Positions 1,662 through 17,943 of a DNA stretch of 20,690 nt are shown here, in pieces. Source of the DNA: Planctomycetota bacterium. GTDB taxonomy: Bacteria > Planctomycetota > Phycisphaerae > Sedimentisphaerales > Anaerobacaceae. The stretch covers positions 1-20,690 of the forward strand of contig JAGLTN010000213.1 of assembly GCA_023135255.1 (NCBI GenBank), read 5' to 3'. Below the pieces are notes generated by a model. The model ran no database searches. It was given only the letters and a program-made list of their open reading frames with translations, and was not told the origin of the DNA. The position numbers and the translations under genes are program-made. Every line of letters begins with the position of its first letter. Position 1 is the first letter of the stretch.

Positions 1662-2012
1662 TGGAGGCGGGGGGATTCGAACCCCCGTCCCGTGATACTT
1701 CAAAGCAGGCGTCTACATGTTTAGTCGCTTATTTAAATTTCGCATTATCAGACGTCAAACGACATACTTCCAAATCAGCTATTTCGTAAGTCTTACTGAG
1801 CAGGTCCGAAAAAATCCGCTCAGCCAGCCTGAAAAGTGACGCTCTATTCAAACCCACAGGCAAGGTCTGAGAGAACGGGTCGCCTATTTAGGCAGCCATA
1901 CGCAACTGTGAGTTGCCAATTAAAAATTAGTCGCCGGATGATTAACCAGGCCAACCGACATCCTGGACATGCAACCTGAGAATCGGCCATCCGGTCGAAG
2001 CCAGTCGCCCCC
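1662..2012 (-). ncRNA. ssrA: Transfer-messenger RNA (tmRNA)
   Basis: One-piece tmRNA of 351 bases that rescues stalled ribosomes by trans-translation with SmpB. The 5' end GGGGGCG (2012-2006) pairs with CGCCTCC next to the 3' end, giving a 7-bp acceptor stem with one G-U pair, as in other tmRNAs. The T arm is GGGGG-TTCGAAT-CCCCC. The conserved GACTAAACATGTAGA-type segment lies near the 3' side. The discriminator A is base 1662 and is followed by G-T-T, so CCA is not encoded and must be added after transcription. The tag frame most likely reads GNSQLRMAA then TAA (1917-1888), with GGC as resume codon; this is inferred from the Ala-Ala-stop ending and from in-frame stops upstream. Complementary segments GCAACT and AGTTGC form a small hairpin inside the tag frame. 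Confidence 0.95.
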
Positions 2013-2048
2013 TTCTTTACTTTTCAAAGGTAATTCCCTACCGCTTTC

Positions 2049-2077
2049 ATTATATACAGATAGTACGAAAATAACAA
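2049..2077 (-). promoter_or_regulatory. Promoter of the tmRNA gene
   Basis: On the minus strand, -35 TTGTTA (2072-2077) and a perfect -10 TATAAT (2049-2054) are 17 bases apart. The start point would be near 2042, so the precursor has a leader of about 30 bases that would be removed by RNase P to give the mature end at 2012. The promoter lies in the short gap after the DUF3616 gene, which has no visible terminator of its own. Confidence 0.75.
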
Positions 2078-2107
2078 TAAAAAGTTTTCACAAAGCTGTT
2101 AGTGGGT

Positions 2108-3184
2108 TCAAGGATTGATCCACATTGCTTTGAAGGTTTGTTTTTGAGGAAGAATAAGGTGTTTATTTAAGCATTTGCCGGGCGAAATATAGGTCCCTTC
2201 CATGCATTGTGCGGGGCTATCCACCTTAACTTCGATCGTGCCGTCATCGCTTAAAACCAGCATTTCCGGCTTATTATCGAAAACGATCAGGGCTTCGGGG
2301 GTAAAGTTTGCGGGGAAAATTTGTTTTAAAAGCTGTGGCGGCGAGCTTCTTTTGCCTGACCATTTATACAGACTAAATGTTGATCGCGAACCAGCTGGGC
2401 CTGCAATTATGAAATAAGCTTTATGGTAGTGATTGTATTCAAAGCTTCTTATGCCCCTGCTTTTAAAATCCCATAAGATTGGCTCACCAAATTCTGGATT
2501 CACCATTTTTTCTATAACTTCAGTCGGGTTCAATAACTGGATGACAATAGCTTTGTCCTGATACTGCGGATTACGAAGGCCTATATAAAGACTTTTGCCA
2601 TCAGCTGAACTGCAAAGCCCTTCGATGTTTAGCCCCTGCTTTTTTGGTGCTAATAATTTTCGTTGTTTTTTGCTTAGATTTAAATCGTAAAACCCGGTTG
2701 CCCTGTCAATGCCAAGAAACTTGAATTTTTTATCTTTAACTATTTTATGAACCAGATCGAAACAGCTGCTTCCGACAGGTTTCAATGTTATATCACTACC
2801 CTGCTTATTAATATCGGTGGCAAAGAACTGATATCTGCTCGCCCTTGGTTTGCCGTCTTTGTTTCGACCATGCGAGGTTATCCAGTAAATGCGATCGCCT
2901 ATTCTGGCAGCGCCTTCAATATCGGCTTCGGGGTGTTTGGGGGCTATGCCGAGAAATCTGTTGAAGTTAAAGCTATAAACAGGTTCAGCTTTGCCGGTAG
3001 TCTTATAAAACCTTAATATGTTGTTTTCATCATCGGCAACAACAAAGGTATCGGCGTCAATCGCAACGGCAGCTGAGGGATCACTGCTGCATCTTAACTT
3101 CAATATCTTATCAGATGAGTTTGACTTACCAGCACAAATTGTCATCACAAAGAGAACTATCAGGATTGTTACGCTTTTCTTCAT
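2108..3184 (-). CDS. Secreted DUF3616-family protein
   Basis: The product is about 358 residues with an N-terminal signal sequence (MKKSVTILIVLFVMTICAG), so it is likely exported. The segments 'ADIEGAARIGDRIYWITSHG' with RNKDG after it, and 'NIEGLCSSADGKSLYIGLRNP', are characteristic of DUF3616, a family of unknown function whose repeated strand pattern suggests a beta-propeller-like fold. A longer frame runs back to a GTG at 3280 overlapping the upstream gene, but the ATG at 3184 is chosen because the signal peptide begins there; no strong ribosome binding site is seen at either. It lies 89 bases after the outer-membrane channel gene on the same strand and could be the last gene of that transcript. 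Whether it functions with the channel system or is just a neighbour is open. Confidence 0.82.
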   Translation of the reverse strand: MKKSVTILIVLFVMTICAGKSNSSDKILKLRCSSDPSAAVAIDADTFVVADDENNILRFYKTTGKAEPVYSFNFNRFLGIAPKHPEADIEGAARIGDRIYWITSHGRNKDGKPRASRYQFFATDINKQGSDITLKPVGSSCFDLVHKIVKDKKFKFLGIDRATGFYDLNLSKKQRKLLAPKKQGLNIEGLCSSADGKSLYIGLRNPQYQDKAIVIQLLNPTEVIEKMVNPEFGEPILWDFKSRGIRSFEYNHYHKAYFIIAGPAGSRSTFSLYKWSGKRSSPPQLLKQIFPANFTPEALIVFDNKPEMLVLSDDGTIEVKVDSPAQCMEGTYISPGKCLNKHLILPQKQTFKAMWINP

Positions 3185-3273
3185 GGATATAAAGTACCAT
3201 ATGTCAGGTTTGCGCCAAGGGCAATGCTGAAAAACTATAATCAAACTTCGGTAAAAACAGCTTAGGAGAAACC

Positions 3274-4917
3274 CTACCACATGCCGTCTGGTTTTACCTG
3301 CATTACGCCTGTATCGCGATAGAAGTTCAGCATGGCGATAGCGTAATTAAGAGAAGCATCTGCTGCCTCATTTTGAGCTAACAAATAATCTCTCTGTGAA
3401 TCAAGAACCCTGCGGGTATTTGCTCGGCCATACTTTAGAAGCAGCATGGTATTACCAAAACGCTTCTTCGCTAATTCAAGATTTTCAACCTGGATGCTAT
3501 GACGCTGTGTTGCTTCGAGAAGGTCACGATAATCATTGCGAACTTCAAGTTTTACCTGGTCCTGAGTCTGCTGATAAAAACGTCGGGTCTGGTTAAGAAC
3601 AATCAAACTATTTCTGTATTCCCATTGAGCAAACGATTTATCAAGCCCAAGATCAAGCACAATACCTGCATTTATATCAGTATTAAGACTGTTAAGGCCC
3701 CTAAGGCGGTTCTTTCTGTTTACTGAACCTGAACTAACAAACCCTGCTCTTGGTTGGGTCTGTGTACTAACAACTAAATCCAGCTGAGCACGAAAAGCAT
3801 CTTCCGCTACCATTACTTTTCTGGCAGCATCATCTATCGCATCAAAAGAATTTAACAGATCAAGCCTGTTGTTCAATGCTGTCTCAACAGACTCCTGACT
3901 TAAAAAAGAAGGTTCAGGCATCTTCTTTGCTTTTAATATGATAAACTCTGTCTCATCAAGAGTAAATTCACTATCGGTAGGCAACGCCAAAACAAGCTTG
4001 AACTCATCCAGCATCTGACGGTATAACTTCTGTTCCTTGACAATAGTATTACGAGCTTGAATTTTTTTCTGTCTTATCTCGTCAAGCTCATATATCGGGA
4101 ACCTACCAACTTTTGCAAGCTTTTCAGCTTTTTCGCATACACTTATTAAAATAGCATAATTATCTTCAGCGTTTTTAAAACGGTCATATTGCTGAAGCAC
4201 CTCATAATATTGAGTTATAATACTGACGACAAAAGTTTTTCTGAAGCGCGAGAAAATTCTTATCTGGTAAAGGGTGTTTCTTTCTGCCTGTGTAAGATTT
4301 TCCATTACTATTTCACGCTGACTACCGCGTAATAATGGTTTGGTGATAGCAGCGTTGAATATGCCCGACAAGCCGCTGCGAAAATCACCTGTAAGAATAT
4401 TAACCCATGCAAGAGTAAGGTCGGTTGTTATCAAAGTACCATCCTGAAGCAACTTGCTAAAACCAACCATTGGGCTGGCGTTTATCTGCTGCATCCCAGA
4501 TACGTCATCATATTGATAACCGGCACTGCCGCCTCCAAAAAACTGGGTCTCAAAATCGTGCCTGGTTAAGTTCAGATCCAAAGCACTTATATAGAGGTTT
4601 TCTTTTTCAATCTGATATTCTCTGCTGTGAGCAGTTGCAATAGCAACAGCGTCAGAAAGAGTTAAAACACCTGATGCAGGAACCGCCCTTTCAATTTTTA
4701 TAGCCTGAGGATCAGGTTCGACATCGCTTATTTTGTAATTGGTTTTAACGCCATGGGTGTTTGGGTCCCATTTTTTGTCTAATATTTTATAGACCCTCTC
4801 ATCAGAATCTGCTTTATACTCTTTCACTTCTTTGCTGCATCCGGAAACCGCCAGAGCTATCAAAGTTAACCATAAAACAATGTTACTTAATTTTTTTTTG
4901 ATGAAATAATAAGTCAT
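3274..4917 (-). CDS. TolC-family outer-membrane channel lipoprotein
   Basis: The 547-residue protein belongs to the outer-membrane efflux (TolC/OEP) family: two alpha-helical halves (about 85-320 and 340-540) with long amphipathic stretches, motifs such as 'TLSDAVAIATAHSREYQIEKE' minus its last residues at about 86-105, and beta-strand-like segments between them. The N-terminus is a lipoprotein signal with lipobox LAVSGC, predicting lipidation of Cys27, as in many OprM-like channels. It would form a trimeric duct across the outer membrane and dock with the periplasmic adaptor encoded 75 bases upstream. The ATG at 4917 has only a distant AGGTGA, so initiation may depend on translation of the preceding gene. 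The last bases overlap a possible but unlikely GTG start of the DUF3616 frame. No pump gene lies nearby. Confidence 0.9.
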   Translation of the reverse strand: MTYYFIKKKLSNIVLWLTLIALAVSGCSKEVKEYKADSDERVYKILDKKWDPNTHGVKTNYKISDVEPDPQAIKIERAVPASGVLTLSDAVAIATAHSREYQIEKENLYISALDLNLTRHDFETQFFGGGSAGYQYDDVSGMQQINASPMVGFSKLLQDGTLITTDLTLAWVNILTGDFRSGLSGIFNAAITKPLLRGSQREIVMENLTQAERNTLYQIRIFSRFRKTFVVSIITQYYEVLQQYDRFKNAEDNYAILISVCEKAEKLAKVGRFPIYELDEIRQKKIQARNTIVKEQKLYRQMLDEFKLVLALPTDSEFTLDETEFIILKAKKMPEPSFLSQESVETALNNRLDLLNSFDAIDDAARKVMVAEDAFRAQLDLVVSTQTQPRAGFVSSGSVNRKNRLRGLNSLNTDINAGIVLDLGLDKSFAQWEYRNSLIVLNQTRRFYQQTQDQVKLEVRNDYRDLLEATQRHSIQVENLELAKKRFGNTMLLLKYGRANTRRVLDSQRDYLLAQNEAADASLNYAIAMLNFYRDTGVMQVKPDGMW

Positions 4918-4992
4918 AATAGTAGGATGTCACCTTGACGGCCAAAAGTCTCTTAAAAGAAGCTATACCATCATCAGATTGCTACCCCTCCT

Positions 4993-6147
4993 TTAGAGTC
5001 CTCTTATACCAACCGTTTCACCTGGAACAACTTCCATATTTGAAGGGATGCTGATAAGTATAGGCCTGCCCCACTGACGAATATTCTGATCTCTCAGCAA
5101 TTTAGCGGAAACCTCTTCCACAACCGGACCAACGTTGACAACTTTGGATTTTGCCACCTGGATTGGGAAACCTTCTTTTCTTATCTCAACCTGCATGTTA
5201 TTTTGCTTAAGTAAATCAAGCTGAGTTTCAGATGCATAAGCAACAATTGCGACAGTGTCTATCATACGAATGGTAAAAACCCTGTCACCAGGCATGATAA
5301 CTTCACCCGGCATAACATATATCTGGCTTACGATACCATCATCAGGAGCATATAATTCCAAAGGCTGACGCATAGCCACAAGCTCTTCCATTTCCTGTTC
5401 CTGAACTTTTATGGCTTTGTGAATTACTTCAAGCTCATTATCAACTGAAGGCTCATGAATCTGCTGCTTTGCATATTCTTTTGCTCTGATATCAGAGTGC
5501 TCTGCAGTTGCGCGGGTTTCGGTAAGCAATATTTGATTTTCCGCTATCTTCTTTGCAAGTGCATCATAAGCAACCTGAGCTTTTTGCACCTCATATTCAG
5601 CAATAGCATCTTCTTCTAAAAGCTCTTTAGCAACATTCAGATCCAGCTCAAGGTTCCATAATGTCACCTTGTCTGTTTCTATTTCTGCCCTGAGCTCAAG
5701 AACGCTCAGACGCGTCTGCTCAACATCAGTGGCAAATCTTCTGTATGTTGCCACCTTATCATTTTCTCTTTGCTGCTGGTCAGTCAGCATTTTATCCTGC
5801 GTCGGCACAAGCTGTGCCATCAGGTATTGTATCTCAGCTGAGATCGTGTTAAGCTGTTCCTGAATATGTTCATTATCACCTACCGTGTTTATCACTGCAA
5901 GAAGCTGACCTTTTTTAACAACATCAAACAAACCAACTTTGACGGTTTGCAGCCGACCTGTACACGTTGCAGCAACCTGACGTTTTTCCGCTTCAACAAC
6001 ACCTAAAGTCTCGAACTTAGCAGCCTTGCGAACAAACAGGCCATAAACACCCGCCAACGCCAACGCCCATATCAAAACCGGTACAACGTGCAGGCGTATG
6101 CTTCCACGGTTATTTTTTTTCGGATATATTCTTTTCAGATCCATCAT
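4993..6147 (-). CDS. HlyD-type periplasmic adaptor (membrane fusion protein)
   Basis: The 384-residue protein has a short basic N-terminus, one membrane helix at about 19-38, then a split lipoyl-like domain ('GRLQTVKVGLFDVVKKGQLL' near 64-83, and 'APDDGIVSQIYVMPGEVIM' near 267-285) flanking a long helical hairpin (about 95-260). A beta-barrel-like segment follows to the end. This is the layout of membrane fusion proteins that link an inner-membrane partner to a TolC channel. Such proteins normally accompany an ABC, MFS or RND pump; here the immediate upstream partner is the DUF4956 gene, whose stop is only 7 bases away, implying coupled translation. Two ATG codons are adjacent; GGAAAG precedes the first. 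The hairpin is of moderate length, compatible with reaching a TolC-like duct. Confidence 0.88.
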   Translation of the reverse strand: MMDLKRIYPKKNNRGSIRLHVVPVLIWALALAGVYGLFVRKAAKFETLGVVEAEKRQVAATCTGRLQTVKVGLFDVVKKGQLLAVINTVGDNEHIQEQLNTISAEIQYLMAQLVPTQDKMLTDQQQRENDKVATYRRFATDVEQTRLSVLELRAEIETDKVTLWNLELDLNVAKELLEEDAIAEYEVQKAQVAYDALAKKIAENQILLTETRATAEHSDIRAKEYAKQQIHEPSVDNELEVIHKAIKVQEQEMEELVAMRQPLELYAPDDGIVSQIYVMPGEVIMPGDRVFTIRMIDTVAIVAYASETQLDLLKQNNMQVEIRKEGFPIQVAKSKVVNVGPVVEEVSAKLLRDQNIRQWGRPILISIPSNMEVVPGETVGIRGL

Positions 6148-6154
6148 CTTTCCA

Positions 6155-6853
6155 CTAAACCTCTAACAGTTGTTCCTGCATCGTTAAACTAATATTTTCA
6201 ACACCTTCGATGTCTTGCAGCTCAGCCAGCATCTTTTCATTCTTCTTGGCGTTTTTAATCATAAGCTGGTAAGCATACTCAACAACCGGGTTACCAAAGC
6301 CGCTGTCCTGTGCAGATATCAAAGTAAAATTACCACAAAAACGTTTTAAAACTGACGGCACCGGGTGCTTAGCACCCATATGACCAGCCAAACTAAAACG
6401 TAAAAATCCATTATGAGGCTGATGTTTTCCAAAATCAGTAAAATACATATAAAGCGTAACAGCACTAAAGAAAATTGTCCCCATAATAGCTATATCATAA
6501 TTCTGTGTTCCAGTGGCCATTCCGATAATCAGCGAACTGAATATAAAAACGATGTCCTTGGTATCCTTGACAACATTACGAAAACGGATAATTGCCAATG
6601 CGCCCATAAGACCAAATGCGGTAATAATATTATTACCAATAATACCCATTATCATAGCAACAAGGATGGTTATCAGTATCAAAGACTGCACAAAAGACTT
6701 TGAATAAGACAGACCGCTGTGAGTGAAATAATAAACCCATGCCATCGTTTGACCTAAAACGAAAGCAAGCAGCAGAGACATCAAAACCGCCTCGGTACTG
6801 AAAGCCGAACCCACAGAGCCAGCACCATCTAATATACCCCAAATTTCTTCCAT
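6155..6853 (-). CDS. DUF4956 integral membrane protein
   Basis: The 232-residue product has about four or five membrane segments in its first 140 residues (near 22-42, 53-72, 75-90, 100-115 and 120-138). The motif 'GALAIIRFRNVVKDTKD' at 84-100, followed by a further hydrophobic helix, is the hallmark of DUF4956. Residues about 170-232 form a soluble tail with an alpha/beta pattern, probably cytoplasmic. DUF4956 genes are commonly found beside VTC-domain and CotH genes, and both are here. The family has no proven activity known to me. The conserved Arg and Lys residues inside the membrane-proximal motif would suit handling of an anionic substrate, but that is inference. An AGGGTG sequence lies 8 bases before the ATG; the gap to the VTC gene is 41 bases and to the adaptor gene 7, so these form an operon. 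Confidence 0.85.
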   Translation of the reverse strand: MEEIWGILDGAGSVGSAFSTEAVLMSLLLAFVLGQTMAWVYYFTHSGLSYSKSFVQSLILITILVAMIMGIIGNNIITAFGLMGALAIIRFRNVVKDTKDIVFIFSSLIIGMATGTQNYDIAIMGTIFFSAVTLYMYFTDFGKHQPHNGFLRFSLAGHMGAKHPVPSVLKRFCGNFTLISAQDSGFGNPVVEYAYQLMIKNAKKNEKMLAELQDIEGVENISLTMQEQLLEV

Positions 6854-6894
6854 AACTATAACACCCTGTCCACCAAAATCTAATTAATACATTC

Positions 6895-7791
6895 TCACGC
6901 TATCATCGGCAATTTTGGTGCACAAAACCTCAATATACATGCTTTTTTTATCGAACTTGCATATTTGGACATCGGACCTTGTTTCAGATTAAAACACTCA
7001 ACCATCTGACTTATCCACGCAGGATAACGTCCGGTAAACTTAATTTCCAATATAACACCTTCTAAATCCGTTGAAAAATTTCTCCAACCAATACCACCAA
7101 GTTTTACTATAGGACTATCATCAATATTACAACAAACATCACGGTCAAAAGTGATCCGTACCCTGTTTTCGCCATCACCCTCGTAAGCCTCGCGCATATA
7201 CCTGATCCTGGTTACCGGTTTTGCATTGAGACTAAACATATAAAGCTGAAATTGCCTTAATACATCTTCGTCAGTTTTGTAATTCTGAGTGGGAGGCAAA
7301 AACCTGCCTGCCAGCAAATCAACAAGATATTCCCTGCGAACTCTGGCTCTGCTTTTTAAAATAACAGTATTGATTCGTCGTTTTATCTCAAAAAATATTG
7401 GCGATTCAGGATCATCGCTGTAACCACGAACTCGCAACTTAAAACGATTTTTATGCCCTTCAAGTGTTTCTCTGCAAAGCTGAAAACCAGGTGAATCGAG
7501 ATAAGTGCTTACGATTGGATATTCACCATCAGGTTGAAGCTTGCTATAACGATCCATTTTCAAATATGGCCTCAGAAACCTTGCAATAGCAACAGCCTTC
7601 TCTTCGCTGATTATATATTTCATTTCATAACGATAACCAAGCGTACGATCTACGTACTCCTCTTGTTTCTGGGCAATACTTTTACCCAACTTAGAAGACG
7701 TAAAACCAACTCTACGTTTAGAAGGACTCCTTAACGCAGAATACGTTTTTTTGCCTTTATTTAAAACTTTTTTCTGTGTACCCACAAACAT
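6895..7791 (-). CDS. VTC-domain protein, polyphosphate-polymerase type (triphosphate tunnel fold)
   Basis: The product is about 298 residues. Residues 50-280 match the VTC domain, the catalytic part of the yeast polyphosphate polymerase, a member of the triphosphate tunnel metalloenzyme superfamily. Charged strand motifs that line such tunnels are present in order: YEMKY (E56, K58), FKLRVR (K118, R120, R122), FFEIK (E135, K137), K146 and R148, TRIRY (R195, R197), RVRITFD (R210, R212, D216), LEIK (E249, K251) and SKY (275-277). Nothing obvious is missing, so catalysis is likely. Residues 1-50 are a very basic, probably disordered extension rich in Lys and Arg. No membrane segment is present, so it would act in the cytoplasm, probably at the DUF4956 protein. 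The ATG at 7791 is preferred over an in-frame TTG at 7830; the ribosome site (GAAAG) is weak. Confidence 0.85.
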   Translation of the reverse strand: MFVGTQKKVLNKGKKTYSALRSPSKRRVGFTSSKLGKSIAQKQEEYVDRTLGYRYEMKYIISEEKAVAIARFLRPYLKMDRYSKLQPDGEYPIVSTYLDSPGFQLCRETLEGHKNRFKLRVRGYSDDPESPIFFEIKRRINTVILKSRARVRREYLVDLLAGRFLPPTQNYKTDEDVLRQFQLYMFSLNAKPVTRIRYMREAYEGDGENRVRITFDRDVCCNIDDSPIVKLGGIGWRNFSTDLEGVILEIKFTGRYPAWISQMVECFNLKQGPMSKYASSIKKACILRFCAPKLPMIA

Positions 7792-7839
7792 CTCTTTCGT
7801 TAAAAATAAAAACAGCTGTAACCCCAACAAGTGAACCTA

Positions 7840-7929
7840 TCAACAATAATTCCAAGCACAGGACGATGCTATAGTCCTCAACATCCCCAAAAAAAATACA
7901 TCTTCCCGCGACATAAAACCACCATCCAT
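7840..7929 (-). CDS. Possible 29-residue leader ORF ahead of the VTC gene
   Basis: A short frame begins with an ATG at 7929 that has an unusually good ribosome site (AGGGGTGG ending 5 bases before it) and ends at a TGA 48 bases before the VTC start. The product would begin MDGGFMSREDVFF and end CAWNYC; nothing similar is recognised. It lies wholly inside the predicted 5' leader of the VTC operon. It could be a regulatory leader peptide or chance; the ribosome site is the only positive evidence. Confidence 0.22.
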   Translation of the reverse strand: MDGGFMSREDVFFLGMLRTIASSCAWNYC

Positions 7930-7977
7930 GGGTACCACCCCTGGAAGTTAAAACTGCGACAACCAAGTCTTAACAGT

Positions 7978-8007
7978 ATTTTAACATAAAGGGGGTAGTT
8001 TAGTCAA
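7978..8007 (-). promoter_or_regulatory. Promoter of the VTC-DUF4956-adaptor-channel operon
   Basis: On the minus strand, -35 TTGACT (8002-8007) and -10 TAAAAT (7978-7983) are 18 bases apart. Transcription would start near 7971, leaving a leader of about 180 bases before the VTC ATG. The presence of a promoter here implies that the downstream operon can be expressed apart from the CotH gene, although no terminator separates them. The 307-base gap 7792-8098 also holds the short leader ORF and an inverted repeat. Confidence 0.6.
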
Positions 8008-8030
8008 GCCTAAATGCTTTAAATTAGGCT
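8007..8030. repeat. Inverted repeat abutting the -35 box (candidate operator or hairpin)
   Basis: AGCCTAA (8007-8013) and TTAGGCT (8024-8030) are perfect 7-base inverted arms around a 10-base spacer. One arm touches the -35 box of the VTC operon promoter. No T-run follows on either strand, so it is not a standard terminator. The position fits a site for a dimeric regulator, but a mild stem at the end of the CotH transcript is also possible. Confidence 0.5.
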
Positions 8031-8098
8031 AATTTGACAGTTTTTAATGCCCTAATATTTTCCCCCAAACCTGCTATTTACAATAAACTCACATTTGA

Positions 8099-11000
8099 TT
8101 AATTATTAACCTGGGCAGGTGAAGGTTGCGCAGCTGTCCAGTTATTGGGGTCATTGCCATAACAATCGATATACAAACGACTTATAGATGCTCCGCCGCC
8201 ATCAGGGTCCAAATGCCCCGGCACTAAATCCCATACAGGCCAGGGTGATTCCTCGTCATAATTGACCCTGTCAATACGGATGTAATTACCTCCATCTCCC
8301 GGCATTTCCAGATCAATTTTTTCACCCGCATTATTTAATTTTCCATCATAAGGGCCAAAAATCCTGCTTGAAGGCACTGTTGGGTACTGATTTGAAAATT
8401 TCCCGCAATCTTTTGCAATAACTATATATTCCCCCGCCGGTATCGATGCACCTGATGGAAATTGATAGTCAACAGCATCAGATATCCTCCAGGGCCAACC
8501 AACCATATAGTTGTAAAGATTGACAGTTAATGAACTTATATTATGTAATTCAATATACTCCAAATCCTGATCATCGCCGGGATTATACATTATCTCATTA
8601 ATTATAACCGGGCCAACTTTCGGATATGAATTTGCAAAACCTGGGGTTGAGCTTTCCATTGCAACAAAATTAAACGTACCTGTGCTTTTCTGATATCTGC
8701 CGAAAGAGATGCCGTATTCTGAAGGCCCGAAATCTTCCTGCTGACTATAGCCCGTCAATTGACCATCACAACCAGAATACAAATAAACAGTTTCGCCATT
8801 ACTACTCAAACCAAAAGGTTCATTACAACCGGGGTCACCGTAATTACCAAAATTCTGATCCCGTGAAAATACAACATAACCGTAAGCCCCTATAACTGTC
8901 CCCGAAGCTATTTCATATTTAGTAATATTTGGTTCGCCATTATCATTGTCGCTTAAGAACCATCCACCAATATTAATTGCGTTGTTAGTTGTGTTATGTA
9001 GTTCTATCCAGTCATAGCTGCCGCCGAGAGGATTAGACATCACTTCGTTTATTACTATCGCTCCATCTTCAGGAACATCACTATTGTCACTCTCGCCTGG
9101 GCTGCCGCCAACTGCTTCACTTGGTCGCCAACTGTCTTTTTCGCCCCAGCTTCCAAGGTTAGGATCCTGCGGATTTCTTATTGTCAGAGAAAAACCAACC
9201 CCATCAGTAGAATCGTACCAGCTGTCTTTGTACTCAAAATCAAGTATCGTACTATTTGTCGAATCTTCAATTTTAATTTTTTCACCGCTGTTGCTAAGAT
9301 TGGCAAAATACTGCCCCGGAGCAACATTGATTGCACTGATATTATATTTTAGTGCAAAAGCGGCACGATTTTTGACAATCACAATATACTCATCTGCGCC
9401 GAGGGTAATATTGTCTTCAGCAGTGAAACGATATTCAATGCCGTCAGTTAAACAAACATTACTCAGTGACAACGGTGCAGGGCCGATATTCTGCAATTCG
9501 ATATATTCAAACTCATCGCCATCTGTGCTATTAAAATCAGCGGGGTGATACATTAATTCTGTTATTCTTAAATACCGCTGGGCAGCGGTGGGATCCGGCG
9601 GGTAACTGCCCTGACTGACAAGATCATTATTTTCATCAAGCAGCTGTATCGTCTCACCCCAGTTTGAAAGATGACCTGTGTAATTGCCCTGAACAAAACA
9701 GCCCTGACCACCAGTCGGGCTTGTTGCCCTGTTTTTAAATGCAACCCTATCAGGTGAAACATAGATACTGTCATTCGAACATATAACAGTGCTTTTATCA
9801 AAAGTAAACTCTACTCCGCCCGTAAGCTTCCAGTCGCTGATATCAACCGCATAATCGTTTGAGTTAACAAGCTCAATGTATTCTTCGTCCTGATTGCCTG
9901 AAGCGGGATTGTATTCAATCGTCCCAAAACTAACATACGCATCCCCAGGCTGAGCATCAGGCAGATCTTCATGGTCATACAGAAGCTCTCTTCTGAAAGC
10001 AAGGTACTGCTCTTTGATGTGCGTCATACTTACACTAATCAAAACATCAGGGTAATCAACATAACCGGTATTCAGATAACCCCATACACTTCTATCGAAA
10101 TCTGCTTCAGTTCTTACATAGTCACGATATTCATCCAGCCTCTTTTCCAATACCAAATTCTCTTGAGCTGTTCCAGGCGGCTTGAAATATTGATCCATGA
10201 TCGAACGCAACCTTCTGAGAAACATCTCTTTGGTTTTAGGGTCAACAAAAACAGATTGCGGGTAAAGGTTATCTGAGGTTCCACCCCATCCGCCAAAATA
10301 AATGCTGTACATGTAATAGAGATCTCCACTGCCGGTGTATAAATACCCCCAGCTAAGGTCCCTGTCCCATGGGAAGACCGCCCACTGCTCTTTTGCTATG
10401 TCATAGTGAACGTAAAAATTCTTCTGTGTAAAATCCACTTCCTGGCAGATTGCATTTCCTACAACATAACTGACAGCCTGAGGAATATTCATATAATCAA
10501 ATATATAGTTGTGTCTTTCTTCTACCGGCAAATTGAGCCCCTCAACAAAATCTATCATGGGCTCATAGTCGCCATTTTTAACTTCGAAATCGTACGCATC
10601 ATCAAATACACAGCCCACATAGGCTTTGTAAAGCGGATTATCATCTTCATATCCGTTTCGCTCGAGGAACTTGGAATCAACCTGCTCTACATATATAGCC
10701 ATGCTGTGATATTGACCATTCTGGTGAATTCTTAAAGGGAAACACAAGCTTGCAGGACAACCTATCTTACGCTGCATTTCCATAGAGAGCAAGTCACGAA
10801 TGTAACTGGTATCAGCATAAGCTGAGCCCAGGTTAATTTCATCTACGCGAATCTGGTCCGGATCGATCAGGCAATGATGCTCGCGGTTGAACTCTATCTT
10901 ATGATTTTTCTTCGTCCAACCAGATGATGAGCCTCCCCTCATCCGGATGAATACATTGTCATAAAATTCATCGTTGTAAAAGACGCTGCATCTTGTCCCC

Positions 11001-13306
11001 GGATCTGTGTCAACGGCAACTGTATCTTCAGCATACCAGAAAAGTATCGGCAGATCGCTGGTTAAATACTGATCCTTTGCGATAGTGCCAAAATATTCAG
11101 AGGTGCTTAGCGGATTTGCAAACACTGGATGACGCGAACTGTATCCCTGGTTATCAGAAGCTGTTATGTACCAGCGCACCATATCGTTTGTAGCAAAATT
11201 ATTGCTGTCTATAACGCCGCCATATATTCCATCGCCTGCCCCGCCGTCGCCATGGGCACCATCATCAAACATAAAGCTAATAGATTCAGGCCCATACATG
11301 ACGCGCCAATGAAGCTGTATTGAAGTTGGATTTACCGGGTTGACAAGCTCCTCTACTTTAGCAGTCACTATTATGTCCTGATCTGCTATTGGTACAATCG
11401 GAGTATGTTCAGCATGGCTGATTTCAGGCCCAAGAATTGCAACACCTTCACTATTGTTACTACCAGGAGTAGGCTCTTTAAAATATACATATCTTTCGAC
11501 ATCAACACCTTCTGAAGCTGCAACAAGCTCAGGGAGAATTACAAAATTTGAATTAAAAATATCAGTATTAAGTCCATGGATCGCCAGCACATTACCGCCC
11601 GACCTGAGTATGCTGACAAATGAGCTGATATCAAATTCTTCAAATACAAAAGTCTGTGAGTCCATGTGCTCAATCGCACAATCGTCAAACTCAGGTGCCT
11701 GACCATCATCAACATCAACGTAAGCTCTGGCAATCTCTATCCCGTTTAGATAAGCAACAAAACCGTCATCATATTTCATTCTTAGAACCAGCGACTCTAT
11801 CGCCTGGGGATCTTCGACTTCAAATGGGATTCTGATATAGGCGGAAGTTTGTTTTCTATACATCTGCAACCTGATATTGGTTTCTATCAATGAGTCATAT
11901 GTGCCATGAGTATCAAATCCTATCCCGACGGCGGCCGAGGCCCACGAAAAATCATTAAACCCAAAAGCTGTCCATGAATCGCCCAACGAGCTATTTGTTG
12001 GAACAATATACTTTATCGCCTTGCCAGCTTCGATGAACTTTGTACTTTCCACTATTGCGGTTTTCAATCCATAAGAAATCTCCGGCATTTGCATAGGATA
12101 TGTATCTGAATATTCAAAACATATCTGACCATCAGGTTTTACAATAGCAAGATATTCACCTTCGAGGTCAAGAGTAAAATCGGTATGGCAATAGCCTTGA
12201 GGGCAAATATATGGGTCCCGCCTTTTAACTTTGTCTGATGCACAAACTATAAGATAGTCATTAGCTTTAATAGTAGTGCCAAGCGGAAATTTCCACTTAG
12301 TCAAATCTCCATCATTATCGGTAAGATACCAACCGCCAAGTTCAATATCATAACCGGTAGTATTAAAAATTTCTATCCAGTCCGGGCTGTCACCATCACC
12401 ATCAAAAAAAGTTTCCTCATTACTGGCCATGAATTCACTTATAACCAAAGGCTGGATTACCTGATCATTCCAGCTATCCGCCAAAATGGAAAAATCTTTC
12501 ATATCTACGGTTTCGGAATTATCAAGATCCGCTCTTTTGGCTACCGATGATGCACGGTTTCTAAGTGACCATATTTCTTCCAGGCTCAGCTTTCTGTTAT
12601 ATACACGAAAATCGTCAATAGTACCCTTAAAGTTGTAACTGACTGTCGAATGTCCTGCGCCGATCTGCTTAATATAAATATGAGGATCGATCTGCCTTTC
12701 GCCCTGCGGAACGCCATCGAGGAATAATTCGATCTCATCTTCGCCGGCAACAAGAGTAACAAACCGCCACCTATCCGCGAAATCAGTATCGAGATCCCAG
12801 ACTACCGCATCGCTGACAAAATTTCTAAACTTGGCTTCTCTCTCTTCGAGCATATAAAAATAATCTGCTGTCACGCTGTCATCACCAAAAACCATTGCTG
12901 AGGTCGGGTACAATGTCACATAAGCATTTGGCGTTTTCTTAGCCCAGAAGCTGATACTGTAATTAGAGATAAGCTCAATCTGCGGGATATTGATTTTGCT
13001 GCCCTGTTGTGTAAAATTCAAAGCTGAACCAAATTTTCCTTCAACCCACTGGGCTCCGTATATCATGACATAGTTACCGCCAACACTATCATACGCAACA
13101 TCACCACTATCAGCATCAAATTTCCAATGTGAAGATAAGCTAACCTCCCCGTCACCGATTTGCAACCATTGCTGAGACATCAAATCTAAATCTTCAAAAT
13201 CGACATTACAATTGCCGGTAATGTCACCTTCAAAACTCGCCAAACAACAGTTGCCTGAAAAGGTGAACAATATTAGAAATATTGTTTTAAAAATAGATAT
13301 TTTCAT
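8099..13306 (-). CDS. Giant secreted CotH-kinase protein with LamG-like, dockerin-like and lamin-tail domains
   Basis: The product is about 1735 residues from the ATG at 13306, which follows AAAGGTG; a TTG at 13318 is less likely. Order: signal peptide (1-24), dockerin-like repeat (30-50), LamG/concanavalin-like domain (60-250), second dockerin-like repeat (260-280), first lamin-tail-like domain (287-400, 'PLVISEFMASNEE'), a linker with beta-sandwich character (430-730), CotH kinase domain (about 755-1110), and four more lamin-tail-like segments (starting near 1124, 1246, 1416 and 1566). The kinase domain shows 'RMRGGSSSGWTKKNHKIEF' at 788-806 with R788, K799, K800 and K803, and 'KNFYVHYD' followed by 'VFPWDRDLSWG' with D981 and D983, matching the CotH pattern of a Lys/Arg-rich strand and a PWDxD metal-binding motif. 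CotH proteins are atypical kinases that phosphorylate secreted proteins. The substrate here is unknown. The adjacent VTC and DUF4956 genes fit the known neighbourhood of bacterial CotH genes. Confidence 0.9.
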   Translation of the reverse strand: MKISIFKTIFLILFTFSGNCCLASFEGDITGNCNVDFEDLDLMSQQWLQIGDGEVSLSSHWKFDADSGDVAYDSVGGNYVMIYGAQWVEGKFGSALNFTQQGSKINIPQIELISNYSISFWAKKTPNAYVTLYPTSAMVFGDDSVTADYFYMLEEREAKFRNFVSDAVVWDLDTDFADRWRFVTLVAGEDEIELFLDGVPQGERQIDPHIYIKQIGAGHSTVSYNFKGTIDDFRVYNRKLSLEEIWSLRNRASSVAKRADLDNSETVDMKDFSILADSWNDQVIQPLVISEFMASNEETFFDGDGDSPDWIEIFNTTGYDIELGGWYLTDNDGDLTKWKFPLGTTIKANDYLIVCASDKVKRRDPYICPQGYCHTDFTLDLEGEYLAIVKPDGQICFEYSDTYPMQMPEISYGLKTAIVESTKFIEAGKAIKYIVPTNSSLGDSWTAFGFNDFSWASAAVGIGFDTHGTYDSLIETNIRLQMYRKQTSAYIRIPFEVEDPQAIESLVLRMKYDDGFVAYLNGIEIARAYVDVDDGQAPEFDDCAIEHMDSQTFVFEEFDISSFVSILRSGGNVLAIHGLNTDIFNSNFVILPELVAASEGVDVERYVYFKEPTPGSNNSEGVAILGPEISHAEHTPIVPIADQDIIVTAKVEELVNPVNPTSIQLHWRVMYGPESISFMFDDGAHGDGGAGDGIYGGVIDSNNFATNDMVRWYITASDNQGYSSRHPVFANPLSTSEYFGTIAKDQYLTSDLPILFWYAEDTVAVDTDPGTRCSVFYNDEFYDNVFIRMRGGSSSGWTKKNHKIEFNREHHCLIDPDQIRVDEINLGSAYADTSYIRDLLSMEMQRKIGCPASLCFPLRIHQNGQYHSMAIYVEQVDSKFLERNGYEDDNPLYKAYVGCVFDDAYDFEVKNGDYEPMIDFVEGLNLPVEERHNYIFDYMNIPQAVSYVVGNAICQEVDFTQKNFYVHYDIAKEQWAVFPWDRDLSWGYLYTGSGDLYYMYSIYFGGWGGTSDNLYPQSVFVDPKTKEMFLRRLRSIMDQYFKPPGTAQENLVLEKRLDEYRDYVRTEADFDRSVWGYLNTGYVDYPDVLISVSMTHIKEQYLAFRRELLYDHEDLPDAQPGDAYVSFGTIEYNPASGNQDEEYIELVNSNDYAVDISDWKLTGGVEFTFDKSTVICSNDSIYVSPDRVAFKNRATSPTGGQGCFVQGNYTGHLSNWGETIQLLDENNDLVSQGSYPPDPTAAQRYLRITELMYHPADFNSTDGDEFEYIELQNIGPAPLSLSNVCLTDGIEYRFTAEDNITLGADEYIVIVKNRAAFALKYNISAINVAPGQYFANLSNSGEKIKIEDSTNSTILDFEYKDSWYDSTDGVGFSLTIRNPQDPNLGSWGEKDSWRPSEAVGGSPGESDNSDVPEDGAIVINEVMSNPLGGSYDWIELHNTTNNAINIGGWFLSDNDNGEPNITKYEIASGTVIGAYGYVVFSRDQNFGNYGDPGCNEPFGLSSNGETVYLYSGCDGQLTGYSQQEDFGPSEYGISFGRYQKSTGTFNFVAMESSTPGFANSYPKVGPVIINEIMYNPGDDQDLEYIELHNISSLTVNLYNYMVGWPWRISDAVDYQFPSGASIPAGEYIVIAKDCGKFSNQYPTVPSSRIFGPYDGKLNNAGEKIDLEMPGDGGNYIRIDRVNYDEESPWPVWDLVPGHLDPDGGGASISRLYIDCYGNDPNNWTAAQPSPAQVNN

Positions 13307-13369
13307 TAATACCAACACCTTTTAGACAATTGTATAAATAATTACACCATCAACACATCTACATCGACC

Positions 13370-13381
13370 TACCAATTGGTA
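13370..13381. repeat. 12-base palindrome in the CotH leader
   Basis: TACCAATTGGTA is a perfect 12-base palindrome, about 40-50 bases downstream of the predicted CotH transcription start and in the gap between the divergent CotH and GH130 genes. It could be an operator; only one copy is seen. The rest of the 300-base gap 13307-13606 holds only the two divergent promoters. Confidence 0.45.
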
Positions 13382-13428
13382 AAATAAGTAAACCTCAATA
13401 ATCGCCAATACACCAAGATAGACACCTT

Positions 13429-13437
13429 ATTATAGCA
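13429..13437 (-). promoter_or_regulatory. Extended -10 promoter of the CotH gene
   Basis: The minus strand reads TGCTATAAT (13437-13429): a perfect TATAAT with the TG of an extended -10 element. No good -35 box lies upstream, as is usual for extended -10 promoters. The start point would be near 13421, giving a leader of about 115 bases. Confidence 0.5.
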
Positions 13438-13520
13438 GATTTTACATTAAATTACTACCGCAAAAGCCTTTTTAGAAGATTAAGCCCTTTTTTGAGCTTT
13501 TGGCCTAACTTTTATAAAAA

Positions 13521-13549
13521 TTGATACAAACTGAATTTTCTTGCATAAA
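13521..13549 (+). promoter_or_regulatory. Probable promoter of the GH130 gene
   Basis: TTGATA (13521-13526) and CATAAA (13544-13549) are 17 bases apart. An alternative -10, TATACT at 13574-13579, is closer to consensus but lacks a good -35 box. The GH130 start codon is preceded by AGGAG with 8 bases of spacing. Confidence 0.4.
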
Positions 13550-13606
13550 CTTCTGCAAAAGCTAATATTACGTTATACTTTTCGACATTAATTAGGAGCG
13601 AATACA

Positions 13607-14647
13607 ATGGCAACATTAAGATGCCCTGAGAATCCTGTTATACGCCCCAAAGACATACCTCCTCTAAGAACAGATTTTGAAGTTATAGGTACGTTTAACC
13701 CTGCTGTAACACGTTTTAATGATGAAATAATATTGCTGTTGAGAGTCGCCCAAAGACCTATAAATCCGCATCCTGATTTTGAACTTGTGCCAATATACAA
13801 CGCTCAGAGCAATGAAATAGAAATAAAGGAAATTTCCAGAGACTGCCCGGACAGCAACTTCGATGACCCCCGGATTATCTATGCCGCAAACGAAGTGTTT
13901 CTCACGTCAATATCATATTTTCAGGTTGCACGCAGCAAAGACGGCATAAATTTTGATATCGATACATCCGAAGTGCTTTTCCCGGCAAACAATTATGAAA
14001 CTTTCGGCCTGGAAGATGCTAGAATAACGCGTATAGATAATGAATATTACATTACTTATGTCGCTGTTTCACCCATGGGGGTAATTACATGTTTGGCCAA
14101 AACGAATGATTTTAAGAATTTTGAAAGACTCGGCATAATTAGCTGTCCTGATAATAAAGATGTTGTATTATTCCCTGAAAAGATAAAAGGTAGCTATTAC
14201 GCCATTACCAGACCTGTAACGCCGCTCTTCAGTAAACATGACATGTGGATCGCAAAATCGCCTGACCTGCTGTTCTGGGGCCAACATAAACACCTGCTCG
14301 GCGCTGACCAGAAAAGCTGGGACAATCTCAAAGTCGGCGCAGGTGCAGTACCTTTCAAAACTGATCAGGGTTGGTTAGAAATATACCATGCCGCTGACAA
14401 GGAAAATTGCTATAGTCTGGGAGCACTTTTGCTGGACATTAACGATCCATCCAGAGTTCTCGCCAAAAGCAAAAAACCTATACTTAAACCACAAGCAGAC
14501 TATGAACTTGAGGGTTTTTTTGGAAATGCGGTCTTTAGTTGCGGCTGCCTGGAAGAAAAAGAAAAAATCATCATCTACTATGGGGCTGCTGATAAATACA
14601 CCGCACGTGCAGAAGTGCCTTTAAAAGACTGTTTTGATAGCTTCTAA
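13607..14647 (+). CDS. GH130 family enzyme (mannoside phosphorylase or mannosidase type)
   Basis: The 346-residue protein has no signal peptide and should be cytoplasmic. It has the five-bladed propeller pattern of GH130: 'GTFNPAVTRFNDEIILLLRV' near 28-47, 'DDPRI' near 86-90, 'ETFGLEDARITRI' near 131-143 with the putative catalytic acid D137, 'NKDVVLFPEKIKG' near 183-195 and 'YGAADKYTARAEV' at 325-337. GH130 enzymes act on beta-mannosides, mostly as phosphorylases that release mannose 1-phosphate from oligosaccharides taken into the cell, and in some subfamilies as beta-1,2-mannosidases. I cannot separate these from sequence alone. The length lies between typical short and long members. A good ribosome site (AGGAG) supports the ATG. 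The gene stands alone, with the CotH gene divergent and a 663-base gap downstream. Confidence 0.88.
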   Translation: MATLRCPENPVIRPKDIPPLRTDFEVIGTFNPAVTRFNDEIILLLRVAQRPINPHPDFELVPIYNAQSNEIEIKEISRDCPDSNFDDPRIIYAANEVFLTSISYFQVARSKDGINFDIDTSEVLFPANNYETFGLEDARITRIDNEYYITYVAVSPMGVITCLAKTNDFKNFERLGIISCPDNKDVVLFPEKIKGSYYAITRPVTPLFSKHDMWIAKSPDLLFWGQHKHLLGADQKSWDNLKVGAGAVPFKTDQGWLEIYHAADKENCYSLGALLLDINDPSRVLAKSKKPILKPQADYELEGFFGNAVFSCGCLEEKEKIIIYYGAADKYTARAEVPLKDCFDSF

Positions 14648-14980
14648 AACCAAGCGGTTAGCTAATTTCAAATCGTGCTTATAGCTATACACAGATAAGT
14701 TTTTTGCTGATTATTCATCGCTTTTGCCTTTTTACAGGACCATTGTAATCCTTTTTAAAATCCTTAAATGTGTTTATTTTTATCACAGGGCATGTTGCTT
14801 TTTATAAACATTGGCCAGAAATATCGTTTAAAGCAACTTTAACTACCCAAACAATGTAAAAATAGGGCAAAAGAAAGATAGCCATGTTTAAAAAAAACAA
14901 CATGCTGTTAAAATAAGACTTTTTGAAATATAAAAACTGCATCTTTTCATTGGTTGCGTAAATGGTTATGTTGAAAGCTC
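14648..14980. other. Non-coding gap after the GH130 gene
   Basis: No credible gene is seen in this AT-rich stretch. It contains a 10-base palindrome TATAGCTATA (14680-14689) and perfect 6-base inverted arms CATGTT and AACATG around an A-rich spacer (14883-14904). No clear intrinsic terminator for the GH130 gene was found. Confidence 0.5.
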
Positions 14981-15010
14981 TTGCCTGATATCAGATTTGT
15001 TTTTTTTAAT
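14981..15010 (+). promoter_or_regulatory. Possible promoter of the three-hairpin RNA
   Basis: TTGCCT (14981-14986) and TTTAAT (15005-15010) are 18 bases apart. A perfect 10-base palindrome, CTGATATCAG (14985-14994), overlaps the -35 box and could bind a regulator. Start near 15017 would give a transcript of about 195 bases ending at the terminator. A GATACT element at 15039-15044 is an alternative. Confidence 0.3.
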
Positions 15011-15068
15011 ATTACCAGAACATGGCATGGCCTTTGCTGATACTAAGTCCAGCCTAACAGGTGACGAC

Positions 15069-15211
15069 ATTGGGCGGACGTCCTAAAACTAATATTGGAG
15101 GAGGATGAGTCCGCCCGATTCCGTTAATAAGCAAAGTTGGCTCATGTCAGCTTTGATACAACTTTTGGACTGAGATTACGCCGGAGGATGGGTGATCTCG
15201 GTCTTTTTTTT
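15069..15211 (+). ncRNA. Candidate three-hairpin small RNA or leader RNA
   Basis: Three stems are visible. P1 pairs 15069-15079 with 15109-15119 (11 bp, one G-U), around a 29-base loop. P2 pairs 15132-15141 with 15146-15155 (10 bp, two G-U) around the tetraloop TCAT. P3 pairs 15168-15179 with 15192-15203 (12 bp with G-U pairs) and is followed by eight T. The octamer GGAGGATG lies in the P1 loop (15100-15107) and again in the P3 loop (15183-15190). Loop GGA motifs of the AGGATG type are known as CsrA/RsmA binding sites, and they also resemble Shine-Dalgarno sequence. It does not match tmRNA, SRP RNA, 6S RNA or a TPP riboswitch by eye. A free-standing sRNA and a cis leader of thiE are both possible; the transcript's 5' end is not fixed. 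Confidence 0.6.
15168..15211 (+). terminator. Strong intrinsic terminator (P3)
   Basis: A 12-bp stem GACTGAGATTAC / GTGATCTCGGTC with a 12-base loop is followed directly by eight T (15204-15211). It ends the RNA about 100 bases before the thiE start codon. Confidence 0.85.
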
Positions 15212-15272
15212 ATCAATTCTCCAACAGAAATCAATAAAACACTCACAAATGAACATAAAATAGTCTTTTAGC

Positions 15273-15301
15273 TTAAATTCAATCATTCTTTAGCGTATAA
15301 T
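15273..15301 (+). promoter_or_regulatory. Promoter of thiE, implying a leaderless mRNA
   Basis: A perfect -10 TATAAT (15296-15301) is preceded, 17 bases upstream, by a weak -35 TTAAAT (15273-15278). The start point would fall near 15307-15309, only 2-4 bases before the GTG start codon at 15311. Confidence 0.55.
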
Positions 15302-15310
15302 CTTACAGTT

Positions 15311-16372
15311 GTGGAAAAGAGTATTTACAGAATTATCGATGCTAATTTTAATCGTGGTCGCGAGGGACTGCGGGTAATTGAGGAATATTGCAGGTTTTAC
15401 TTAAATAACAGCCAATTATCGGCAACAGCAAAACAGCTTCGCCATTTACTCTGTGATGCTGTCGGCAAAATAGAACCAACCAGGCTGATAATCAGCAGAG
15501 ATACCACAAATGATGTGGGTGTTGGGCAGAAAATCGAAAAACAGCTCAATAGAAAAGGTCTGACTGATGCTTTAACCGCTGCCTGCAAAAGGGTGCCGGA
15601 AGCTTTAAGGGCAATATCAGAAATGACGCAAATTTTTGCCCCGAATATCGCTGAAAAAATCGAAATGATAAGGTACCAGTCATATACGCTTGAAAAAGAT
15701 ATTATTTTATATTGTGGGCCTTTTGAAAAATTCAAAGGTATCAAACTTTACGTTTTAATCACAAGCAATGACTTCGCTGAAGTTAAAAGACTTACGCAAC
15801 AGTGCGCTTGCGGCGGGGCCGACTGTATTCAGCTTAGGACAAAAGGGCTTGAAGACGATTTGCTTTTTGAACTTGCATCAAAATTTGTCAATCTCTGCAA
15901 AGACAATAATATCATGAGCATAATCAATGACCGGGTTGATATTGCAATTGCAAGCGATGCTGATGGAGTTCACCTGGGACAAAACGATCTGCCTATAGAC
16001 AAAGCAAGGCAGCTAATGCTAAAGCCTATGATAATCGGGTTAAGTACGCACAATATTAAAGAGCTTGAAAAGGCCTGCCAATTAAATCCAACTTACGTCG
16101 CTATCGGGCCTGCGTTTGCAACAACTACTAAGCCGGATATAAAAGTTGCGGGCTCTGAGTACATTAAGCAGGCGATAGAAAGACTCAAAGATGCAGGTAT
16201 TGCAAGTGTCGCTATAGGCGGGATCAACTTTGAAAATATAGAACAGCTGCTTCGGCTCGGCGTAACGGCGGTAGCGGTGTGTTCGGCAGTAACAGAAGAC
16301 AGTGACCCGCAAGCTAAATGCAGAGTTTTAAAAAATAAGATAGAAGCACATTTGCAAAGGGGTTGCACATGA
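15311..16372 (+). CDS. thiE: ThiD2-ThiE fusion, thiamine-phosphate synthase
   Basis: The 353-residue protein joins two domains. Residues 4-125 ('YRIIDANFNRGREGLRVIEE') match the ThiD2 domain, for which hydroxymethylpyrimidine-phosphate kinase activity has been shown. Residues 145-345 are a ThiE TIM barrel with its signature blocks: QLRTK (174-178), 'INDRVDIAIASDADGVHLGQ' (205-224), GLSTHN, 'AIGPAFATTTKPD' (264-276), AIGGIN (301-306) and the phosphate-binding end of the barrel. ThiE couples HMP-pyrophosphate with thiazole phosphate to give thiamine phosphate, so the fusion covers two consecutive steps. The start must be the GTG at 15311 because the ThiD2 motif begins at once and an in-frame TAG lies upstream with no other ATG, GTG or TTG start. 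No ribosome site is present. The stop overlaps the next start in an ATGA. Confidence 0.93.
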   Translation: MEKSIYRIIDANFNRGREGLRVIEEYCRFYLNNSQLSATAKQLRHLLCDAVGKIEPTRLIISRDTTNDVGVGQKIEKQLNRKGLTDALTAACKRVPEALRAISEMTQIFAPNIAEKIEMIRYQSYTLEKDIILYCGPFEKFKGIKLYVLITSNDFAEVKRLTQQCACGGADCIQLRTKGLEDDLLFELASKFVNLCKDNNIMSIINDRVDIAIASDADGVHLGQNDLPIDKARQLMLKPMIIGLSTHNIKELEKACQLNPTYVAIGPAFATTTKPDIKVAGSEYIKQAIERLKDAGIASVAIGGINFENIEQLLRLGVTAVAVCSAVTEDSDPQAKCRVLKNKIEAHLQRGCT

Positions 16373-17931: not shown

Positions 17932-17943
17932 GATTTGAGAATA

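Follow-up and report, generated by a model that had tools for sequence, protein, structure and literature searches.

A conserved VTC-DUF4956-adaptor gene block of planctomycetes as a possible envelope-spanning export unit

How phosphate polymers reach bacterial surfaces is, to our knowledge, an open question, and we likewise know of no agreed molecular activity for the MgtC-like membrane proteins. A block of genes on contig JAGLTN010000213.1 of a Planctomycetota bacterium (assembly GCA_023135255.1) bears on both. The complete contig, 20,690 nucleotides long, was taken as the window of this analysis; its genome (G000) is 83% complete and lies in 644 contigs. The window encodes, one after the other, a CotH-kinase protein, a VTC-domain protein, a DUF4956 membrane protein, a periplasmic adaptor and a TolC-type outer-membrane channel (Table 1). 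The VTC, DUF4956 and adaptor genes form a trio whose order is invariant among the adaptor-bearing loci drawn via VTC or DUF4956, and we propose, tentatively and with confidence somewhat short of even, that this trio and the channel constitute one envelope-spanning export unit driven by polymer synthesis.

A reading of the DNA made without database searches (the sequence-only reading) had placed all five genes on the same strand. That strand is the minus strand, and each product scores above its Pfam cut-off (bits/cut-off: CotH 102.2/23.8; VTC 147/23, with 147.5 bits for the VTC domain in a search of its own genome; DUF4956 44/30.6; adaptor 49.9/30 with HlyD_D23 and 48.3/22.2 with HlyD_3; channel 73.1/22 with OEP). 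The intergenic gaps given there (41 bases from VTC to DUF4956, 7 from DUF4956 to the adaptor and 75 from the adaptor to the channel) are exact; CotH and VTC are 268 bases apart. The further assertion that the four downstream genes stand behind one promoter does not hold up as well: a promoter-like site is located in the CotH-VTC gap (8007-7978), but such sites are no commoner than chance, 28 having been found in positions 2000-14000 where 30.7 are expected.

VTC domains are present in 78 of 294 genomes sampled across the phylum. Ninety-nine loci around VTC matches, together with the window, make up a phylum survey of 100 loci, scored with models built for this analysis. Within 6 kb of VTC, DUF4956 is found in 85/100 loci, CotH in 66/100, and one or the other in 89/100; the order VTC-DUF4956-adaptor occurs in 23, with the channel gene next in six of these. 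Since 62 of the 85 VTC-DUF4956 loci lack an adaptor, the adaptor and channel are an addition belonging to one group. The second set of loci consists of the best 80 of 518 relatives of the adaptor-linked DUF4956, taken with one genome per species from 84,980 species genomes. The adaptor is next after DUF4956, completing the trio, in 77 of these 80, a count that is biased by the manner of sampling; in the other three loci the contig ends 28 to 161 bases past the DUF4956 domain. By record title, 77 of the best 80 are planctomycete and the other three are Acidobacteria, Candidatus Sumerlaeota and 'bacterium'; the closest named DUF4956 relatives among them belong to metagenome-assembled genomes (MAGs) of Sedimentisphaerales and other Phycisphaerae. 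Pooling the two sets yields 100 adaptor-bearing loci, all drawn via VTC or DUF4956, of which 95 are distinct once five exact duplicates are removed. In 95/95, VTC lies upstream of DUF4956 and the adaptor follows on the same strand, the gap between the VTC and DUF4956 domains having a median of 113 bases and a maximum of 1015.

The same linkage emerges when the search starts from the adaptor. A profile built from the adaptors of DUF4956-drawn loci, and thus tuned to this subfamily, was run against 118 genomes of the order (E 1e-30 or better, at most 16 candidates scored per genome). It yields 69 matches in 66 genomes, all of which except two fragments reach 1e-90 or better, and 63 of the 69 are immediately preceded by DUF4956 and VTC. 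Among the exceptions, G361 and G315 start within 4 bases of the contig start, G357 reaches the contig end, G396 is a partial match, and in G390 a run of N interrupts the gene, leaving its second half as the match (at L212, 7162-8502, a reading frame through the N stretch fuses an unrelated start to the adaptor end, a scaffold artefact). G378 is a genuine exception, its adaptor sitting behind a secretin gene: at L211, 1818-5193, the gene immediately before this subfamily adaptor is a secretin-TPR gene, and VTC and DUF4956 are both missing from its sides. The linkage of the trio is well beyond chance. The prospect, raised in the sequence-only reading, that adaptor and channel would be missing beside VTC-DUF4956 in all relatives is disposed of by these counts, and the joint machine proposed there gains support at the level of gene linkage, the neighbourhood survey having found a recurrent block in planctomycetes.

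The trio is maintained at DUF4956 identities as low as ~33% and also occurs in Acidobacteriota and Sumerlaeota records. At least 2 of 297 Acidobacteriota genomes have an adaptor match under 1e-40 (6 candidates scored per genome), and one of these two, G449, carries the trio. In the other, an Acidobacteria MAG (G414, L217/L219), a TolC-type gene is followed by a subfamily adaptor with a longer C-terminus; VTC and DUF4956 were not found in the visible stretch, which stops at the contig end and in which gene picks are poor. A tree of 107 DUF4956 proteins (every fourth of L130-L193 kept, 6 duplicates removed, loci without VTC or with fewer than 150 residues of DUF4956 left out) gathers 50 adaptor-linked proteins into one group of 52 rows with support 96/99; the adaptor-linkage label changes 3 times on this tree, versus 35.7 times in shuffles. 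The tree is midpoint-rooted only, and a long-branch warning attaches to its other parts. The two remaining rows of the group are L063, whose contig stops shortly past DUF4956, and L075. Three genomes (G157, G209 and G261) contain the adaptor-linked kind as well as an adaptor-less CotH-VTC-DUF4956 kind, and the two kinds are therefore probably not interchangeable.

The claim that the tunnel residues of the VTC protein are intact is confirmed by alignment to yeast Vtc4, which a profile of 34 VTC sequences matches at 5e-14. Residues R133, R135, E262, K71, K150, R213, R225, K264 and K289 are invariant in 34/34 sequences and pair with Vtc4 tunnel residues, the Vtc4 alignment ending before K289; for the basic residues other than R133 and R135, it is our assumption that their Vtc4 partners line the tunnel. 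R133, R135 and E262 of the window protein face Vtc4 R264, R266 and E426, which are named as tunnel residues in the available part of PMC9911596. The protein belongs to the VTC family by its Pfam score and by its basic tunnel residues, and, to judge from its sequence, it would make polyphosphate or a similar polymer. Its start codon is uncertain, the N-terminal ~60 residues being variable. When the VTC and DUF4956 proteins of the window were scanned with Pfam (E up to 0.01), neither an SPX domain nor a Vtc1-type transmembrane domain turned up. A search of the window's genome found neither PPK1 nor PPK2. Across the order, 23/118 genomes have PPK1, 15/66 adaptor-bearing and 8/52 others (Fisher p 0.36); this is no replacement pattern, and the notion that VTC replaces PPK1 was dropped. 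In many genomes of the order, long-chain polymerization may depend on VTC alone, PPK2 having been searched for in the window's genome alone. Elsewhere, VTC directly precedes a thymidylate-kinase-like P-loop protein of ~540-625 residues (L050:8993-10711, L086:6120-7916, L109:4028-5698 and L123:5908-7782, with Pfam PF02223 confirmed in four loci); judged by sequence start only, the same pair occurs at L052, L070, L092, L094, L118 and L126, and some of these loci continue with DUF4956 and/or CotH.

DUF4956 is a remote relative of MgtC and ends in an ACT-like tail. Its AlphaFold model (mean pLDDT 75) has five helices in the membrane part, and the tail, the C-terminal domain that is also characteristic of the MgtC/SapB family, matches the MgtC C-terminal domains 7qa5 and 2lqj (Foldseek). 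No Foldseek match to the model lies below 1e-3, and the matches listed in a second look cover residues 145-232 only, so that the membrane part is barely tested. The Pfam MgtC match is sub-threshold in 45 of 46 DUF4956 sequences (best E 1.1e-5) and ACT is matched in 3; the window protein itself, at 16.3 bits against 31.4, falls below the MgtC/SapB cut-off. A true MgtC open reading frame (ORF) is recovered at E 2e-9 by a DUF4956 model made for this analysis (database size fixed at 1000). Solved structures searched with the single DUF4956 sequence gave 0 matches, and with the profile gave weak ACT and protoglobin matches alone (best E 0.037). The adaptor-linked set shows almost no variation in RFRNxxKDTxD, the loop that joins predicted helices 3 and 4: R90, F91, R92, N93, D97, T98 and D100 are invariant in 46/46 sequences (alignment A2), only R90, F91, R92, D97 and D100 in 15 more diverse ones (A1), and RFR itself is shared by 58 of the 65 remaining DUF4956 ORFs at these loci. 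The loop would face the cytosol if, as we infer, the ACT tail is cytosolic. A natural fusion of VTC with DUF4956, or of DUF4956 with the adaptor, was not seen; long ORFs such as those at L053 and L058 have the look of starts extended too far in GC-rich DNA.

The adaptor has the parts expected of a tripartite-system adaptor, namely a membrane anchor (one N-terminal transmembrane helix), lipoyl-like halves, a long helical hairpin and a beta-barrel, in a confident model (88.5) that is nearest to EmrA. Four adaptor-less loci (L031:4152-5258, L039:11537-12637, L038 and L046) hold a one-helix protein of ~368 residues between DUF4956 and CotH, with a TPR match at L031 and none at L039; this protein may fill the adaptor's part there.

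The TolC-type protein begins with a lipobox and is a predicted lipoprotein, as the sequence-only reading had it. Its OEP domain, above the cut-off, places it among TolC-type channels, outside the subfamily of the NCBIfam type I TolC model (37.1 against a cut-off of 225.15). Of the 95 distinct loci, 50 carry an OEP gene no more than 4 kb downstream of the adaptor and 6 have a secretin gene as the adaptor's neighbour (4 on the same strand); a channel gene of either type is thus present in 56/95, while 13/95 loci are cut before a channel call is possible. The two types occur together in 0/95 (Fisher p 0.0026 on 50, 6 and 26, relatedness ignored). The secretin-bearing loci without an adjacent TolC-type gene are L132, L140, L142, L143, L148 and L174. 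A secretin model finds 7 genes, and no others, across 180 loci; secretins are frequent in the order (59/59 genomes, 2-16 each), and a rough estimate from that density predicts about half a locus by chance versus the six seen. The evidence that a secretin can be swapped for the TolC-type channel is suggestive only, and a simple swap is made less plausible because the genomes of L132 and L174 keep a close OEP elsewhere; those of L142 and L143 do not. Eleven genomes without an adjacent OEP were searched, and a close OEP elsewhere (E 1e-124 or better) was found in 6 (L132, L135, L155, L174, L202 and L203), although in L135 the scaffold is broken and the OEP sits on its other part.

No pump family recurs beside the block. 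Clustering of neighbours in the 100 adaptor-bearing loci finds only VTC, DUF4956, the adaptor, OEP (48 loci) and CotH (46) to be widespread. Among clusters present in at least 5 of these loci, with identities judged from one member each (several for secretin), there is no ABC, MFS or RND pump family, nor any polysaccharide synthase family. Just 9/95 loci have, no farther than 3 kb from the trio, a protein with at least 5 hydrophobic segments. An inner-membrane pump could be encoded elsewhere, unlinked to the block. An envelope-spanning unit with DUF4956 as its inner-membrane part fits, because a channel is present in 56/95 loci and no pump recurs. The next-commonest cluster, a leucyl-tRNA synthetase downstream in 14/100 loci, is plain synteny; the others in at least 5 loci are CYTH, diacylglycerol-kinase-like, DAHP synthase, secretin, histidyl-tRNA synthetase, histidine kinase, response regulator, alpha-L-fucosidase and two without a Pfam match. 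The CYTH-domain protein, of another triphosphate-tunnel family, lies ~6-8 kb downstream in 8 loci, probably by synteny, and at L150:10273-10830 it sits directly after leucyl-tRNA synthetase.

The CotH protein of the window consists of a LamG-like domain, the CotH domain (residues 791-1085) and five lamin-tail domains. D962 and D985 align, through 5jd9, with the aspartates of B. subtilis CotH that we take to be its active-site pair, D228/D251; domain and aspartate pair together identify the protein as a CotH kinase. CotH is found within 5 kb of the block in 25 of 47 adaptor loci with at least 5 kb visible on both sides, and is a frequent but non-obligatory neighbour, more loosely attached than the four downstream genes.

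On the export reading, the cytosolic VTC protein would make polyphosphate or a similar phosphoanhydride polymer from nucleoside triphosphate, and the chain would be fed, presumably through direct contact, into DUF4956, a small MgtC-like inner-membrane protein serving as the conduit, whose ACT-like domain would be cytosolic and probably ligand-sensing. The EmrA-like adaptor and the TolC-type channel (perhaps a secretin in some lineages) would dock onto this conduit and carry the chain past the outer membrane, and the secreted CotH kinase and lamin-tail proteins would act at the surface that it reaches. This mechanism is the best fit because the gene order is fixed, no pump recurs, the polymerase residues are intact and a channel stands at more than half of the blocks. 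That it represents a new class of machine, with synthesis as the motor, an MgtC-like conduit and an interchangeable channel, operating without an ABC, MFS or RND pump, is more doubtful still than export itself.

Several facts weigh against export. Most VTC-DUF4956 pairs of the phylum survey do without the adaptor. RLS is the TolC-docking motif at the adaptor hairpin tip, and the full motif is missing from these adaptors (R in 7/33, L in 30/33, S in 6/33). There is no downstream channel gene in 26/95 blocks despite at least 1.8 kb of room (L042, counted among the 26, has an OEP gene divergently upstream), and no close OEP was found anywhere in 5 of the 11 genomes searched (L136, L142, L143, L194 and L198). 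A few searches of open-licence papers turned up no biochemical data for any bacterial VTC protein. MgtC is best known as a regulator, not as a channel. It is likewise cited as a regulator in the available part of PMC12345266, where, for Streptococcus intermedius, no decrease of aggregation is reported upon deletion of the VTC-type SIR_1593. Kinship with MgtC and this apparently silent VTC deletion pull toward a regulatory role, in which VTC-DUF4956 would be a phosphate- or ligand-sensing module in control of how a surface matrix is made or assembled, the adaptor and channel would export another product via an unlinked pump, and CotH would phosphorylate surface proteins. The make-up of DUF4956 matches that of SIR_1592, described in the same part of PMC12345266 as an MgtC membrane part plus ACT; deleting SIR_1592 or the CotH gene SIR_1594 lowered aggregation and altered Pel levels, the SIR_1592 deletion raising Pel. 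SIR_1592 is probably a DUF4956 protein, to judge from this make-up and from the available part of PMC7112168, in which genes for CotH, a poly-phosphate polymerase (PPP), DUF4956 and DUF4832 accompany pel exopolysaccharide operons as accessory genes of Gram-positive pel clusters (bearing out the claim that VTC, DUF4956 and CotH co-occur in known cases). The abundance of adaptor-less pairs also suits such a role. However, a regulator needs no adaptor gene fixed directly behind DUF4956, as it is in 63/69 cases, nor does the role sit easily with a VTC protein that keeps its full catalytic tunnel or with surroundings in which neither a pump nor a polysaccharide synthase family recurs. We regard this regulatory role as somewhat less likely than export.

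The export reading also has a variant in which the unit sends out polyphosphate or another phosphate carrier as the extracellular phosphoryl donor of secreted CotH, which outside the cell has no ATP to draw on. The frequency of CotH near VTC in the phylum survey and near the fully visible blocks speaks for it, as does a window CotH that looks secreted and keeps both aligned aspartates; CotH is, however, absent within 5 kb of 22 of the 47 fully visible blocks, and we know of no CotH that uses polyphosphate; we consider this variant improbable. That VTC-DUF4956 and adaptor/channel are functionally unlinked, their order merely inherited in one lineage, agrees with an adaptor linkage confined to one DUF4956 tree group and with the largely planctomycete titles of the best 80 loci, but the trio outlasts divergence to ~33% identity and reaches Acidobacteriota and Sumerlaeota records, other flanking genes are rarely kept (14/100 loci for the next cluster), and neighbour clustering together with the adaptor-first test leaves this very improbable.

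Other genes of the window complete the picture of the locus. A DUF3616 gene, omitted from the sequence-only reading, directly follows the channel gene on the same strand, and DUF3616 also occurs near other blocks (L132:11954-13090, L142:14401-15540, L174:13976-15139 and, by inspection, L212:10357-11457). The plus strand at 13607-20330 encodes a GH130-type phosphorylase (13607-14647), a ThiD2-thiamine-phosphate synthase (15311-16372), a GH28 polygalacturonase-like protein (16363-17931) and a protein with glucuronyl-esterase and dienelactone-hydrolase domains (18045-20330). A scan of the window's 11 long ORFs found no glycosyltransferase or other pel-type domain, so the block is not pel-adjacent within the window.

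Table 1. Features of the gene block in the window
Feature	Positions	Strand	Basis
CotH-kinase protein, predicted secreted, 1739 aa	8099..13318	-	Pfam; signal peptide read from sequence
VTC-domain protein PF09359	6895..7830	-	Pfam, no hydrophobic segment found
DUF4956 membrane protein, ACT-like C-terminal domain	6155..6853	-	Pfam, structure model
DUF4956 conserved basic loop, residues 90-100	6554..6586	-	alignment
EmrA/HlyD-type periplasmic adaptor	4993..6147	-	Pfam, structure model
TolC-type outer-membrane efflux protein (OEP) with lipobox, predicted lipoprotein	3274..4917	-	Pfam, sequence
DUF3616 protein, likely signal peptide	2108..3280	-	Pfam; signal peptide read from sequence

If export is correct, no ABC, MFS or RND pump is needed to bring a polymer to the cell surface. 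The four-gene operon makes the questions of the polymer's route and of MgtC-like activity testable, and the block can be divided into a core VTC-DUF4956 pair, which Gram-positive pel clusters also have, and an added part suited to crossing an outer membrane. No paper on the VTC-DUF4956-adaptor-channel block was found among open-licence papers, a search that does not establish its absence from print; the adaptor/channel extension of CotH-VTC-DUF4956 looks new. The authors of PMC12345266 state, in its available part, that CotH-VTC-DUF4956 synteny was not found outside pel; CotH, VTC and DUF4956 are together in many of the planctomycete loci examined here, where no search for pel genes was made.

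The block is most readily compared with four known systems. Like the yeast VTC complex, it joins a VTC tunnel domain with catalytic basic residues to an associated membrane part, with synthesis, in yeast, on the cytosolic side; the available part of PMC9911596 describes the yeast complex as coupling synthesis to passage through a basic channel. In contrast to yeast, no SPX or Vtc1-type domain was found in the block, the membrane partner is the MgtC-like DUF4956, and an adaptor and outer-membrane channel are added in the setting of a bacterial envelope. With the accessory genes of Gram-positive pel clusters it shares the same three families side by side and the MgtC-plus-ACT make-up, whereas no pel gene was found in the window, adaptor and channel follow, the hosts have two membranes and CotH is not a fixed member. 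MgtC/SapB proteins resemble DUF4956 in its sub-threshold MgtC matches and its ACT-like tail; the window DUF4956 nevertheless scores below their cut-off, has a family of its own (PF16316) and keeps other gene partners. EmrAB-TolC and other tripartite systems differ from the block in their pump: no ABC, MFS or RND family recurs beside it, and DUF4956 stands in the pump's place.
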